A program made the translations under genes and the position numbers. 10,558 nucleotides of DNA from Patescibacteria group bacterium. GTDB taxonomy: Bacteria; Patescibacteriota; Minisyncoccia; UBA9983. This document shows, in pieces, positions 1-10,429 of the stretch; the stretch's first letter is position 1; the number at the start of each line of letters is the position of its first letter. The notes beneath the pieces were generated by a model. The model was not told the DNA's origin, made no database searches, and was given only the letters and a program-made list of their open reading frames with translations. The stretch spans positions 1 through 10,558 of the forward strand of contig JAHJXC010000033.1 in NCBI GenBank assembly GCA_018827845.1. Direction: 5' to 3'.

Positions 1-581
1 AGATCTGAAAGCGATGTTTGGCATCTTGTACACCAGTTTACAACTCGGTCTCCCTGATAAATCCATCCTTTTTTATAGTAATGAAGAAAAGCGGTTTCCA
101 CTGATTTTACATATCCCTCATCCATTGTAAAGCGCGTGCGTGACCAGTCGCAGGAGGAGCCCAGTTTTTTCAATTGGTCCAAGATTATGTTCCCGTATTT
201 TTCTTTCCATTCCCAGACTTTTTGGATAAATTTTTCTCTGCCCAAATCGTGTCTGCTTAATCCCTGCTTTTTTAATTCTTTCTCAACAACATTTTGAGTG
301 GCAATGCCAGCATGGTCTGTGCCGGGCAGCCATAATGTTTTATATCCTTGCATTCTTTTTTTACGAATTAAAATATCCTGAATCGTGGCATTAAGAGCGT
401 GGCCCATATGCAGAGAGCCTGTAATATTGGGCGGGGGAATGGTGATGCAATAGTTTTTGGTTTTTAGTTTGTGGTTTTTAGGAAGATTGTCAGGATTAAA
501 AAAGCCAGATTCTTCCCAGAGTTTATAAATCCTGTCTTCAGTAGCCTTCGGATCATACGGTTTTAAAAGTTTTTCATCCAT
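1..581 (-). CDS. valS: Valine--tRNA ligase, N-terminal part (runs off left edge)
   Basis: Class I aminoacyl-tRNA synthetase that charges tRNA-Val in the cytoplasm. About 193 residues are visible out of the roughly 750-950 usual for the family; the 3' end lies outside the window. Motifs seen: PPPNITGSLHMGHA (residues 49-62, with the HIGH-type ATP signature HMGH), GTDHAGIATQ (typical of ValS rather than IleS or LeuS), CDWSRTRFTMDE, and NWCTRCQTSLSD at the start of the editing-domain region. The start ATG (579-581) gives MDEKLLKPYDPKATEDRIYKLW, a normal ValS N-terminus. There is no Shine-Dalgarno sequence; a TAATAT box ends 7 nt before the ATG, so a leaderless message is likely. It lies 26 nt downstream of tsaD on the same strand. 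Residues 35-44 are encoded by a heptamer repeat tract (451-478) in the variable linker before the PPPN motif. Confidence 0.95.
   Translation of the reverse strand, partial: MDEKLLKPYDPKATEDRIYKLWEESGFFNPDNLPKNHKLKTKNYCITIPPPNITGSLHMGHALNATIQDILIRKKRMQGYKTLWLPGTDHAGIATQNVVEKELKKQGLSRHDLGREKFIQKVWEWKEKYGNIILDQLKKLGSSCDWSRTRFTMDEGYVKSVETAFLHYYKKGWIYQGDRVVNWCTRCQTSLSD
451..478. repeat. Heptamer tandem repeat tract in valS (4 x 7 nt)
   Basis: Four 7-nt units of form T(A/G)GTTTT (TAGTTTT TGGTTTT TAGTTTG TGGTTTT on the plus strand), equal to two 14-nt units with one mismatch. They encode the basic linker KNHKLKTKNY just before the PPPN motif of ValS. Confidence 0.75.
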
Positions 582-588
582 TAGTTAA

Positions 589-616
589 ATATTAGCAAAA
601 TTAAGGATTATTTCAA
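589..616 (-). promoter_or_regulatory. Promoter of valS
   Basis: On the minus strand, TTGAAA (616-611) is followed after 16 nt by an extended -10, TGC TAATAT (TAATAT at 594-589). The ATG begins 7 nt after the -10, so transcription would start at or next to the start codon. The -35 lies inside the last codons of tsaD. Seen by eye only; strength unknown. Confidence 0.55.
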
Positions 617-1678
617 AATTAGATTTCCGTTGGCTTTGAGAGACTGGGGGCTTGCCCTGAGTTTGCCGAAGGGTTTTTTTAGTGCGCGGAAATAGGCGGC
701 AACGCTGATCATGGCGGCGTTGTCGGTTGTGAATTTAGTATCTGGTATTAAGAATTTAGTATTTGGTATATTTTTTTCTATTGTTTCGTTAAGTTGTTTT
801 CTTAACTCATTGTTGGCAATGACCCCGCCGCCGGCAATGATTGATTTTACTTTATATTCTTTGGCAGCGCGGATTGTTTTGGCAATTAGCACATCAATTA
901 CCGCTTGCTGAAATTCATGACAAATGGCAATTTTTAATTCTTTATTCATAATTCCTAACTCTTTTAATTTGTACAATACAGCAGTTTTTAATCCAGAGAA
1001 ACTGAAATCATAATCTTTTGAATTGATCATCGGCCGAGGCAAGTTAATCTTGAAGCTTGAATCTTGAAACTTGAATTTTTCTGCAAGTTTGGCAACTTGC
1101 GGGCCGCCGGGATAGGGAAGTTTGAGCATCTTCGCAACTTTATCAAAAGCCTCGCCAGCCGCATCATCCCGCGTTTGCCCGATTATTTTGTATTTTAACC
1201 AATTTTTTATAAGTACCAATTCCGTGTGCCCACCAGAAACCAGCAACGCCATTACTGGAAATTTCCATAATTTTGATTTTTGATATTTGATTTTTGAATT
1301 TAGGAGCGAAGCGACGATATGTCCTTCCATATGATTTATTCCAATTATTGGTTTGTCCCAAACCTTGTTTAGGTCACGGGCAAAATTTATTCCGGTCCAA
1401 AGCGCCGGTTCCAATCCTGGCCCAATTGTTACGGCAATTAAATCAATATCTTTTATTTTAATTTTTCCTAGAGCCTTTTTTAAAACCACAGGAAGATTTT
1501 TTAAATGTTCTCTTTTTGCAAGATTAGGAACAACTCCACCCCATTTGGCATGAATTTTAATCTGTGAAGCCACCACATTAGATAAAATTTTAAATTTAGG
1601 TTTTGAAAAACCTTCAGAACATTCAACAACGCTTATTGCTGTCTCATCGCAAGATGTTTCTATGGCTAAAATACGCAT
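608..1678 (-). CDS. tsaD: tRNA N6-adenosine threonylcarbamoyltransferase TsaD
   Basis: Transfers threonylcarbamoyl from threonylcarbamoyl-AMP to A37 of tRNAs reading ANN codons (t6A), as part of the TsaBDE machinery. The 356-residue product starts MRILAIETSCDETAISVV, the canonical N-terminus, so ATG 1676-1678 is chosen over an upstream ATG at 1729 that lies within tRNA-Ser. Other motifs: the metal-binding pair H116/H120 in NHMEGH, SGGHTEL (148-154), GEAFDKVAKML, DFSFSGLKTA (224-233), GGGVIANN, and TTDNAAM with metal ligand D319. It is longer than the usual 335-345 residues. The extra residues fall in loops encoded by heptamer repeat tracts (731-772, 936-963, 1046-1073, 1273-1300) and in a C-terminal tail, PFGKLRASPQS, that matches a dispersed repeat. 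There is no Shine-Dalgarno sequence; the start codon lies 2 nt after tRNA-Ser, suggesting cotranscription. Confidence 0.97.
   Translation of the reverse strand: MRILAIETSCDETAISVVECSEGFSKPKFKILSNVVASQIKIHAKWGGVVPNLAKREHLKNLPVVLKKALGKIKIKDIDLIAVTIGPGLEPALWTGINFARDLNKVWDKPIIGINHMEGHIVASLLNSKIKYQKSKLWKFPVMALLVSGGHTELVLIKNWLKYKIIGQTRDDAAGEAFDKVAKMLKLPYPGGPQVAKLAEKFKFQDSSFKINLPRPMINSKDYDFSFSGLKTAVLYKLKELGIMNKELKIAICHEFQQAVIDVLIAKTIRAAKEYKVKSIIAGGGVIANNELRKQLNETIEKNIPNTKFLIPDTKFTTDNAAMISVAAYFRALKKPFGKLRASPQSLKANGNLILK
651..673. repeat. Dispersed repeat-like element fused to the tsaD 3' end
   Basis: On the minus strand this reads CCCTTCGGCAAACTCAGGGC plus AAG. It resembles the short CTTCG(A/G)CAAGCTCAG-type interspersed repeat known from many bacterial genomes, including candidate phyla. 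Here it is translated as PFGKLRA in the extra tail of TsaD. Only one copy is in the window, so its repetitive nature rests on recall of other genomes. Confidence 0.5.
731..772. repeat. Tandem 21-nt duplication in tsaD (6 x 7 nt)
   Basis: Two 21-nt units (731-751 and 752-772) that begin GAATTTAGTAT and differ at a few positions. Each can be read as three degenerate heptamers. Because 21 is a multiple of three, the protein shows a repeated heptapeptide, IPNTKFL then IPDTKFT (residues 304-317), just before the conserved TDNAAM motif. Confidence 0.75.
936..963. repeat. Degenerate heptamer tract in tsaD (4 x 7 nt)
   Basis: AATTCTT TATTCAT AATTCCT AACTCTT on the plus strand, consensus AATTCNT. It encodes the ELGIMNKELK loop of TsaD (residues 240-249). 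More degenerate than the other tracts. Confidence 0.55.
1046..1073. repeat. Heptamer tandem repeat tract in tsaD (4 x 7 nt)
   Basis: AATCTTG AAGCTTG AATCTTG AAACTTG on the plus strand: two 14-nt units with one mismatch. It encodes KFQDSSFKI (about residues 203-211), a loop before the conserved LPRPM and DFSFSGLK segments. Confidence 0.8.
1273..1300. repeat. Heptamer tandem repeat tract in tsaD (4 x 7 nt)
   Basis: TTGATTT TTGATAT TTGATTT TTGAATT on the plus strand. It encodes NSKIKYQKSK (about residues 127-136), an insertion between the HMEGH metal motif and the SGGHTEL strand where other TsaD proteins have a short loop. Confidence 0.8.
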
Positions 1679-5581: not shown

Positions 5582-6023
5582 GTTATTACATGTCTATAAG
5601 CCGAATTCTGTATCCCGCTGTTAGCGGGATGATAGCCATATATCTGTTCGCGATAGTTGCCTATCGGAATCAAGCGGCTCTCCGAGCACATAAAGCATTA
5701 TGTGCTTCGGCTCGGCCTTGCACCAGATAAGGTTTTCAATCCCGCTATCTCACGAAAGCGGGACGTGAGCTCTTACTTTACCCCGTTTGGCGGGGCTATC
5801 CCCGACTATTCGGGGCTCACGATTTCACCCTTACCTCGCCAAAAGCTTTCGCATTTAGGCGGGCGGTATATTTTCTGTTGCACTTTTCTGTCCCTAGAAA
5901 ATTTCTTTTCTAAAGCGTGGCTGTTAGCCACTATCTATTTCTCCGGCAAAAACCGGTGGTGTTCGGACTTTCCTACCGCCACAACTTCGAAGATGTTGGC
6001 GGTCGGCTACCCAACATATAACT
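5582..6023 (-). ncRNA. rnpB: RNase P RNA, bacterial type A-like
   Basis: Catalytic RNA that matures tRNA 5' ends. On the minus strand the 5' region carries GGCGGTAGGAAAGTCCGAAC (conserved region I). Further on come GTGCAACAGAAA, GAGGTAAGGGTGAAA, GTAAGAGCTCACG, GGTGCAAGGCCGAG and the 3' hallmark ACAGAATTCGGCTTATAGA. The ends are set from a P1-like pairing of GTTAT (6022-6018) with ATAAC (5586-5582), extended by ATGT/ACAT. At about 440 nt it is somewhat longer than usual, with added GC hairpins at 5612-5630 and 5740-5763. The L15 segment reads CGGAGAG (5684-5678) where E. coli has GGGTAGG, so the tRNA CCA-binding GGU appears to be missing. Exact ends are uncertain by several nt. Confidence 0.93.
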
Positions 6024-8099: not shown

Positions 8100-8876
8100 A
8101 TGAGCCAAAAAGGAATTACACCAATAATTATACTTTTGATTATCATTGGAATCTTAGTATTGTGTGGAGGAATTTATTACTATCAATTTCAAAAACAAAA
8201 AATCCAAAATCAGGAGGTAATACGAGATGGAACAAAAAAGGATTTTCAATATAAAGAACTGGAAAATCAAAAAATTTTTCCACTAATACGGTTTAGTTTA
8301 AAACAAGGCGCTAACCCAGAAATTATAAAAGAAGTCATAAAAAACACAGACGGAGAACTGATAACTGAAAAACAAATTACAGATTTTGGTTGGGATTATT
8401 ACTATGTAAAATTTAAAACACCTAGAACAACCAATGAGTTAAATAATCTCATCAATGAATTAAAAGAAAAATCAAAAAATATTCCAGATATAATAAGTAT
8501 ATGGTTTGTTTCAAGTAATGAAGGACTATATCAAAAAATATTTGAAAAAGAATTAGAAGCTATTTATGGTAAATCACTTTCACCCAATGAAGTTATGCTA
8601 AAATTTTCTGAAGCCTTAGAAAAAGAAAACATAGATGAGGCGGTTAGTTATTTAAGAGCAAGTATCAGGGAAGATTATAAGAATGCTTTTTATCAAGCAC
8701 AAAAAGATGGGATTTTGCAAGAGATTGCGAATCTCTTTAAGAGTTTTGAAGAAAAGTATATTAACGATGATACTGCAGAATTCATAATTAAATATGAAAA
8801 AGAAGGGAAAACTCTTGGTTCTCCTGTTATTTTAATGAGAGACATACAAGGACACTGGAAAATCCATTCTTTTTAA
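8100..8876 (+). CDS. N-terminally anchored envelope protein of unknown function
   Basis: 258 residues. MSQKG is followed by a single hydrophobic segment (about 6-26, ITPIIILLIIIGILVLCGG) and then YYYQFQKQK, consistent with an uncleaved signal anchor or pilin-like leader (K4-G5 junction) that exports the remainder. C22 is not in a good lipobox, because the residue before it is leucine, so a lipoprotein is unlikely. The exported part has two halves. Residues 57-135 alternate strands and helices, with an ITDFGWDYYYVKF strand. Residues 155-258 form a helical then stranded module, from SPNEVMLKFSEALEKENIDEAVSYL to GSPVILMRDIQGHWKIHSF, reminiscent of NTF2-like or DUF4878-type folds. That resemblance is weak. 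It has its own leaderless-type promoter, and I do not recognise a family. Confidence 0.8.
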   Translation: MSQKGITPIIILLIIIGILVLCGGIYYYQFQKQKIQNQEVIRDGTKKDFQYKELENQKIFPLIRFSLKQGANPEIIKEVIKNTDGELITEKQITDFGWDYYYVKFKTPRTTNELNNLINELKEKSKNIPDIISIWFVSSNEGLYQKIFEKELEAIYGKSLSPNEVMLKFSEALEKENIDEAVSYLRASIREDYKNAFYQAQKDGILQEIANLFKSFEEKYINDDTAEFIIKYEKEGKTLGSPVILMRDIQGHWKIHSF

Positions 8877-9871: not shown

Positions 9872-10429
9872 ATGCAGGAATTTATAACTCAATTACTCTT
9901 AGATCATTCTGTGCTTGCTCCTGTTATTTTTATAATTATCAGGATTTTATCTGTTATCTTTTCTCCTATTCCGGGTTTTGCCATTGATATCCCGGGCATT
10001 CTTGTTTTTGGCTGGCTGCCGGCTTTTATTTATTCAGAGATAGGAGTAATAACAGGAGCCATGATAGCGTTTTTTATTGCCAGAAAATTCAAAGAGCCAT
10101 TAATAAGAAAATTTGTCTCTTTGCAGAAATTACATACTTGGGAGAATAAACTTTCAGAGAAACAAGAATTCTGGACTTTTGTTTCTCTTAGATTAATCAG
10201 TAAACCGTTTTTTGATTATATTAGCTATGCTGCGGGACTAGGAAGGATCAGTGCCAAAAAGTTTTTCCTAGCCACAATAATAGGTGTGATACCTGTTGAA
10301 TTTTTATTTTTCTATTTTGGCGGAATCTTTCTAAATAAGGGAATTTATTATGCAATATTATTTATCATAGCCATAATTATAATCGGCCTTGTTTTTAAAA
10401 AAATTAGTTTAAAAAACAAAACTTGGTAA
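9872..10429 (+). CDS. VTT-domain (DedA/TVP38/TMEM64-like) membrane protein
   Basis: 185 residues with several membrane segments (about 15-35, 42-70, 110-135, 136-152, 158-176). The VTT (SNARE-associated Golgi) domain is indicated by FSPIPGFAIDIPGILVFG, then SEIGVITGAMIAFFIARKF with glycine spacing typical of the re-entrant region, and SLRLISKPFFDYISYAAGLG, containing the conserved arginine and the glycine-rich membrane re-entry. Family members are linked to lipid scrambling or flipping, including undecaprenyl phosphate recycling for DedA proteins, which would fit with MurJ; the exact substrate is not readable. It starts 21 nt after the DUF6879-like gene, so may be cotranscribed. There is no Shine-Dalgarno sequence; only a weak AATAAT lies 5 nt before the ATG. 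Confidence 0.85.
   Translation: MQEFITQLLLDHSVLAPVIFIIIRILSVIFSPIPGFAIDIPGILVFGWLPAFIYSEIGVITGAMIAFFIARKFKEPLIRKFVSLQKLHTWENKLSEKQEFWTFVSLRLISKPFFDYISYAAGLGRISAKKFFLATIIGVIPVEFLFFYFGGIFLNKGIYYAILFIIAIIIIGLVFKKISLKNKTW

Follow-up and report, generated by a model that had tools for sequence, protein, structure and literature searches.

The stretch studied here, called the window, is one whole contig (C67, 10,558 bases) from the 558,660-base genome, in 95 contigs, of a Patescibacteria group bacterium. At its left end lie two genes, both on the reverse strand: the N-terminal part of valS (3..581), cut by the contig end and partially matching the NCBIfam model for valine--tRNA ligase (PRK05729, E 1.6e-90), and tsaD (611..1678, stop codon at 608-610), whose match to TIGR03723 (E 1.6e-112) is over the cut-off. 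An earlier note on this DNA described five tracts of tandem repeats within these genes, and a lag score scan of the window finds the tracts at those positions with those units. Four are in tsaD. One occupies what I shall call loop A of TsaD, before FPVMALLVSGGHTE (1273..1300, residues 127-136, unit AATCAAA, lag-7 score 16.5), and another loop B, before LPRPM (1046..1073, residues 202-211, unit TTCAAGN, lag-7 score 15.5). A weaker heptad tract follows GLKTAVLY (936..963, residues 239-248, lag-7 score 11), and the fourth is a 21-nt compound repeat (731..772, residues 303-316, period-21 score 15.5). The tract in valS (451..478, unit AAAACYA), between NPDNLP and CITIPPPNITG, scores 14.5 at period 14 and 10.5 at period 7. 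All five share the strand of their genes.

Lag-7 scores of at least 9 are limited to 453-477, 929-961, 1046-1075 and 1271-1301; 731-769 scores at period 21, not at lag 7. Tandem Repeats Finder gave period 7, 14 or both at 451-481, 733-769, 1046-1076 and 1271-1301 and did not report the tract at 936-963. Outside tsaD and valS there are only marginal segments, at period 14 (10394-10416, score 9) and period 21 (8432-8464, score 9.5), and eight other open reading frames (ORFs) of the window hold no period-7 array, just as the note had it. The period-7 tracts of tsaD and valS exceed chance, since permuting codons fails to reproduce them: 2000 permutations of tsaD gave a mean of 0.017 period-7 arrays and at most 1, against 3 observed, and for the valS part, where 1 is observed, the permuted mean is 0.0075 (P 0.0075).

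Not all five tracts are alike, nor do all lie in loops, as had been claimed. In an AlphaFold model of this TsaD, which agrees with solved TsaD structures, the tract at 1273-1300 is clearly coil, with a predicted local distance difference test score (pLDDT) below 50 at residues 131-135, and that at 1046-1073 is mostly so, the end of a helix giving way to coil. The tract at 936-963, the weak one, forms a helix-turn-helix, and 731-772 includes a strand. The last is probably inherited conserved sequence and not an insertion, because a congener without a called array (G001) aligns to it free of gaps and with similar residues (own IPNTKFLIPDTKFTTDN, G001 LPNTLYLIPDIKYTTDN), because an array makes no difference to the length of the segment (29 amino acids in 4 of 4 array-bearing TsaD proteins and in 24 of 43 array-less ones), and because of the modelled strand. 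For this tract, then, the note's own ground for refutation, residues conserved in the protein of another genome, applies.

The note took the tracts to come from an amplification process rather than from one copied sequence, and the abundance of period 7 beyond the window supports it. In the counts that follow, arrays were called by a custom lag-7 score, and ORFs were defined by their length, no gene annotation being used; the loci share ancestry, so the P values count related events as if they were independent. The same genome, over 148 kb (20 contigs and the window), has 13 arrays at period 7, none at periods 5 and 8 and seven at period 12, against no period-7 array in Markov-shuffled sequence. 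Over 22 genomes (about 852 kb), 74 arrays at period 7 compare with 4 at period 8, 5 at period 10, 3 at period 11 and between 3 and 5 at period 5; periods 6, 9 and 12 give 16-20, expected from codon structure. Period 7 has 53 runs of at least 11 exact lag matches, no other period between 5 and 11 has more than 6, and simulated sequence has 1; twenty further tsaD-centred loci have 35 arrays at period 7 and 2 at period 8. In 56 loci from other bacteria the excess is weak: 10 arrays at period 7, 2-4 at periods 5, 8, 10 and 11, and 20 each at periods 9 and 12. Those ten sit in seven loci, five of them metagenome-assembled, and in three an array lies, by position, in tsaD (L121, of Saganbacteria; L177, of Omnitrophota; and L124). 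The 24 loci counted as like the Candidate Phyla Radiation were assigned by record title, which for some reads just 'bacterium isolate'. Density is uneven even within a genus (5.0, 1.5 and 0 arrays per 10 kb in G069, G163 and G272, over 18-20 kb each), and the zero counts of array-poor genomes are weak ones, most having been sampled over 10-20 kb.

Where do the arrays lie? The sample used for location, copy number, units and hairpins comes from loci of several origins, is enriched in tsaD and has one genome per species. Among its 216 arrays, 158 are genic, 39 intergenic and 19 at a gene edge; where stretches were selected on grounds other than tsaD, though a few include it, the numbers are 70, 28 and 27. 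Per base, the intergenic rate is the higher one (1.19 per 10 kb, against 0.67 in genes). Within the class tsaD is a hot spot. A set of 41 loci from other genomes of the class, centered on tsaD and in most cases picked because congeners exist, has 24 arrays in its 43 kb of tsaD and 37 in the remaining 647 kb (ratio 9.7, binomial P 8e-14), and 18 of the 41 tsaD genes have at least one. Loop A, before the Phe-Pro/SGGHT motif, and loop B, before PRPM, are recurrent sites, with units that vary from case to case. Comparison of TsaD among relatives finds tracts present, absent or different at matching loops, and pairs of congeners show arrays of one species lacking or altered in the other: at loop A, L223 carries (GAATTAC)4 while L224 and L222 do not, and where L225 has one array, L226 has two others.

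Arrays in genes have a preferred size. At a purity of at least 0.8, 104 of 156 genic arrays measure 28-34 nt, as do 16 of the 47 that lie partly or entirely outside genes (P 9e-5); in the stretches selected on grounds other than tsaD the figures are 36 of 55 and 7 of 30 (P 2.6e-4). Simulated arrays of four exact copies peak at 28 nt and genic arrays of purity at least 0.9 at 30-31 nt, which makes an incomplete fifth copy of 2-6 nt the usual case, as expected of microhomology slippage. Because period 7 is out of codon phase, three added copies (+21 nt) are the smallest gain neutral to the reading frame, and they leave four. Copy number in genes is thus of the frame-compatible kind (1+3k) plus a partial extra copy. 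The genic peak suggests something other than free variation in length, which the note had thought possible between strains; the comparison here is of one genome per species.

The lengths of loop A tell the same story. It has 26, 27 or 29 amino acids in 12 of 28 array-bearing TsaD proteins (25 to 43 in the remaining ones) and 19, 20 or 22 in 51 of 92 without an array, a difference with P 8e-9 and a shift of the commonest lengths by +7 amino acids. The array-less proteins in this comparison include those of other bacteria. In the window, loop A has 27 amino acids, where the commonest array-less lengths are 19 and 20.

The units were thought to be unrelated. At the scale of genomes they are not: they follow a common grammar and recur. 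There are 86 distinct canonical units among 175, and pairs with identical units number 203 among 142 genic arrays (32.5 expected) and 27 among 33 other arrays (4.4 expected), the expectation being matched for G+C and stop codons. The pattern RAAATYN fits 35% of genic and 45% of other units, against 8% and 18% of matched controls, and the unit pattern carries 4.9 bits of information, where four null sets carry 2.9-3.1. The random heptamers behind these controls and null sets came from every locus longer than 5 kb, viral contigs and loci from outside Patescibacteria among them. Of the 22 distinct units outside genes, 9 also occur in genic arrays, and a matched null gives 10.8, which argues against a single dictionary. 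The coding strand of genic arrays has more C than G in 104 cases, less in 40 and as much in 13, a bias that avoidance of stop codons may explain. The array takes in the conserved Phe-Pro codons in 5 of 32 cases at loop A, which shows that units can correspond to host sequence nearby; a general seeding at those codons was considered and set aside, being visible in just those five.

Some arrays have neighbors or relatives of their own kind. Congener arrays at corresponding sites in L066 (18990-19025) and L068 (12298-12341) share one unit and differ in the order of A/G variants at one of its positions. Alignments inspected by eye show related units facing one another at L225 (18976-19055 and 7631-7696) and L068 (12098-12168), for example AGGTTAC four times, a T-rich spacer, then CCTGANN-like units, which could fold into long imperfect hairpins. 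Short palindromic inserts (CTTCGCCAAGGCTTCG, CCGCCAGCTGGCGG and TCCCG..CGGGA) occur in or beside arrays and loops at L212 (about 13990) and L066 (about 9690 and 10020), one apparently within a heptad array.

Then there is a second feature, absent from the earlier note: an inverted repeat flush against the array, on one side only. A score of at least 9 is reached on the coding-sense 5' side of 25 of 170 genic arrays, on the 3' side of none of the 170, at 6 of 680 random genic positions and in 1 of 1700 shuffled flanks. At 7 or more, the counts are 35 of 170 on the 5' side and 8 of 170 on the 3' side, with 15 of 680 for controls; of the 66 other arrays, 2 reach it on one side and 1 on the other. 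Arrays outside genes reach 9 in 0 and 1 of 66 on their two sides, and likewise 8. The stems have 7-16 bp, and the loops 3-6 nt in 34 of 35 cases and 4 nt in 17. The 28 cases with a score of at least 8 come from 25 loci, and some within a family may be one event (L005, L011). Hairpins go with purer arrays (34 of 141 at a purity of at least 0.8, 1 of 29 below). By gene they accompany 24 of 77 arrays in tsaD, 7 of 31 in a cluster of class I aminoacyl-tRNA synthetases, named from the NCBIfam matches of some members and by eye, and 4 of 62 in all others.

What the hairpins are made of can be judged by eye at loop A. The left arm consists of conserved codons of the host gene (YSNWL, for example), and the right arm, an inverted copy of the left, encodes the start of the extra loop; arms vary from site to site in keeping with the host codons. 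At loop B the right arm lies on residues partly present in array-less relatives, and for that reason it is rewriting rather than insertion. The window has a modest example on its reverse strand, an imperfect inverted repeat at 1081..1102 (9-bp stem with one mismatch, 4-nt loop). It stands 4 nt from the tract at 1046-1073 on the coding-sense 5' side, with a score of 6, reached by 23 of 680 controls. A longer form, an 11-bp stem with a mismatch at locus L003, occurs in a genome of the same family (G004). Hairpins at loop A of L196, L210 and L225, from three families, sit at corresponding codons with arms that differ yet are near-complementary, through either recurrent events or compensatory change.

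I propose that the tracts arise by local amplification of DNA in this class of Patescibacteria (Paceibacteria-like), in which a short A/T-rich unit would be brought to about four copies by strand extension with repeated back-steps of seven nucleotides. A snap-back would precede the array in as many as a fifth of genic cases: the strand of coding polarity would fold on a loop of 3-6 nt and copy, in inverted form, some 7-16 nt of the host gene from just upstream, and after its return from the fold it would stutter in seven-nucleotide steps for about 30 nt. Only products in frame and free of stop codons would survive in genes. In the simplest of these, three copies would be added to a single original unit, a gain of 21 nt or 7 residues. 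Loss of a single unit from a fixed array would shift the frame, and the arrays of essential genes would be held near four copies as if by a ratchet. I infer also that arrays collect in tolerant loops, above all those of TsaD and the class I aminoacyl-tRNA synthetases. I regard the chances that snap-back and stutter on the strand of coding polarity, retained where in frame, is the right account as evenly balanced.

Several observations weigh against this proposal. Loop B has 20 amino acids in 8 of 16 array-bearing proteins and 16 in 31 of 76 without arrays (P 0.03; loops B to E were scored where a regular expression matched), and in the window likewise it has 20, where the commonest array-less length is 16. 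A gain of 4 amino acids (+12 nt) needs deletion or rewriting besides slippage by multiples of seven, and the lengths suggest that sequence was replaced as well as inserted. In segments C, D and E there is no significant gain in length (P 0.18, 0.99 and 0.10). The density of arrays in tsaD exceeds even that of intergenic DNA, so tolerance alone might not explain it. Different genomes share units at about 15 times the rate of random heptamers, more than seeds of random local DNA would give. Most genic arrays have no hairpin, hairpins are few outside tsaD and the class I synthetases, and the other three arrays scored in the window have no flush one (scores 0, 0 and 1, with 0 at both 1273-1300 and 451-478). 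Finally, the coding polarity of the hairpins and their near absence outside genes are left unexplained by a generic error of replication. A leading-strand origin was considered. By G/C skew the coding strand is G-rich in 6 hairpin cases and G-poor in 13, which does not indicate the leading strand, and the orientation of neighboring genes at 19 hairpin loci is the same in 10, mixed in 6 and opposite in 3; together these leave the matter unsettled. A source linked to transcription is possible.

An alternative view makes the array, along with its hairpin where there is one or else alone, a very small dispersed element that is copied to new sites in its own genome and in others, in the manner of short dispersed repeats or Rickettsia palindromic elements. 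The recurrence of units is what such an element would give: identical units occur in 41 of 519 pairs of arrays within genomes and 167 of 5922 between genomes, where pairs of random heptamers agree in 0.15% and 0.19%. Arrays in tsaD and valS of one genus even have their unit variants in identical order (L211 at 9885, L212 at 10382 and 13389). Three tandem copies of AAGCACG occur in 3 of 286 genomes of the phylum, in frames that by eye resemble RecJ, ArgS and, in the window's own genome, SecA, and three of a permuted unit in none of 286. A control with the word reversed is uninformative here, AAGCACG backwards being a rotation of itself. Viral contigs give a mixed result, with (AAGCACG)4 in 1 stretch against 1 for the permuted control and (GAATTAC)4 in 11 against 0. 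Against an element stand the many distinct units, the overlap of genic with non-genic units at its null level, and hairpin arms that, by eye, are made of the host codons of each site. A mobile element with a fixed tail was also sought: AAACAAA lies within 20 nt downstream of 5% of 111 grammar-matching arrays and upstream of 5%, leaving no conserved tail to speak of. I consider a dispersed element unlikely.

It is also improbable, I think, that ordinary stepwise slippage by seven nucleotides, followed by selection, made the arrays, with the hairpin a stall site or incidental. Among longer repeats, heptamers are reported to be the largest category in the majority of genomes surveyed (PMC4692102, PMC4679880), and none of the 43 genomes of the class has a MutS (MutS1) match, in a search that was positive for 11 of 14 control genomes. 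The trouble is that intermediates of +7 and +14 would break essential genes, that the excess of inverted repeats is on one side only, and that loop B is shifted by +4 amino acids. Array-rich and array-poor genomes, moreover, are alike without MutS matches, so missing mismatch repair was rejected as the cause, and the MutS-less background is permissive, not the source of differences between genomes. The Pol IV domain, present in 5 of 43 genomes, does not divide the array-rich from the array-poor and was rejected too. Two further possibilities concern what the DNA encodes. Hairpin and array might be an element selected at the level of mRNA, for pausing or as a gap like those bypassed by ribosomes, and that would account for the coding-sense order, the polarity of 25 to 0, the near absence outside genes and perhaps the many 4-nt loops. 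Yet the arrays keep to open frames with a frame-compatible peak in copy number, as no bypassed gap needs to, the hairpin is on just about a fifth of genic arrays, and of two congeners, L225 and L226, one has it and the other lacks it at the corresponding loop; the idea is very unlikely. Nor is there much to be said for repeats that converge because longer, basic or hydrophilic loops are selected in the protein. Several tracts do add residues to loops of TsaD, but period-7 arrays occur outside genes too, by which this explanation is already disfavored; the period is out of codon phase, and near-perfect inverted repeats have no reason at the level of protein. I judge it highly improbable.

To return to snap-back and stutter: a bolder form of it is that Patescibacteria, and perhaps a wider group, have a dedicated or enzyme-specific mutational process that snaps back on the coding strand, stutters at period 7 for about 30 nt with a preference for RAAATYN, favors transcribed genes and leaves frame-locked loops in essential tRNA enzymes. 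This is possible, though doubtful. If true, its tie to coding polarity would imply coupling to transcription or to an RNA intermediate. The proposal would give many loop insertions in TsaD and class I synthetases of small genomes an origin at the level of DNA, and it would give a reason for their four or so copies. Simple slippage gives no reason to expect an inverted repeat that keeps to one side in coding sense and is nearly missing outside genes; should this polarity hold, the question of why bacteria prefer seven-nucleotide repeats would become testable.

The rest of the window and its relatives offer a few observations apart from the arrays. Genes for tRNA-Ser and tRNA-Glu come after tsaD. 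A palindromic sequence, ACCTGCCGGCCGGCAGGCAGG, lies at 2886-2906 in the gap between a GGDEF gene and a ribonucleotide reductase gene. The class A RNase P RNA at 5582-6021 on the reverse strand has 440 nt, against 367 model positions, and seems to bear insertions. In genome G019 (contig C41, 4056-4970) a match to TsaD contains one in-frame TGA, which may reflect a pseudogene, an error of sequencing or recoding.

How do these arrays compare with repeats already known? Searches of the literature, mostly without subscription papers, found no report of heptad arrays in Patescibacteria and none of a hairpin coupled to genic heptad arrays. Rickettsia palindromic elements are related palindromic sequences inserted in frame in protein-coding genes. 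The arrays resemble them as repeat DNA placed in frame within coding genes, and differ in that, by eye, the arms copy the host gene at each site in place of one related sequence and the rest is a heptad array. The short tandemly repeated repetitive (STRR) sequences of cyanobacteria are dispersed heptad arrays too, built of a few fixed units and mainly intergenic. The arrays described here have neither trait, with their dozens of distinct units, however common the grammar, and nearly three-quarters of them in genes.

Two papers describe other heptads. The TAACTGA repeats of Beggiatoaceae, Cyanobacteria and Bacteroidetes (PMC4679880) have one fixed unit, stand chiefly directly upstream of start codons and reach up to 43 copies elsewhere, unlike the arrays here. 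The GGGAATC and GGGGA(C/T)T repeats of Xanthomonas and Nostoc (PMC4692102, which mentions Calothrix heptamers as well) come closer: they are heptad arrays with inverted pairs, and in Xanthomonas their commonest size is four units. They differ in being of one G-rich unit type, over-represented in intergenic regions. Short-range template switching (PMC7954356) resembles the proposed snap-back in that a polymerase changes template and makes small rearranged copies; the portion of that paper available shows no link between such switching and period-7 arrays or coding polarity. The broadest comparison is with the over-representation of heptameric simple sequence repeats in prokaryotes (a 2007 survey cited in PMC4692102 and PMC4679880), for which these papers report a proposal of slippage by steps the size of the polymerase's contact with DNA. 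Here too period 7 stands above its neighboring periods. What sets the Patescibacteria apart from the repeats so described is that their arrays are mostly genic, of about four copies, built on a common unit grammar and accompanied by an inverted repeat on one side.

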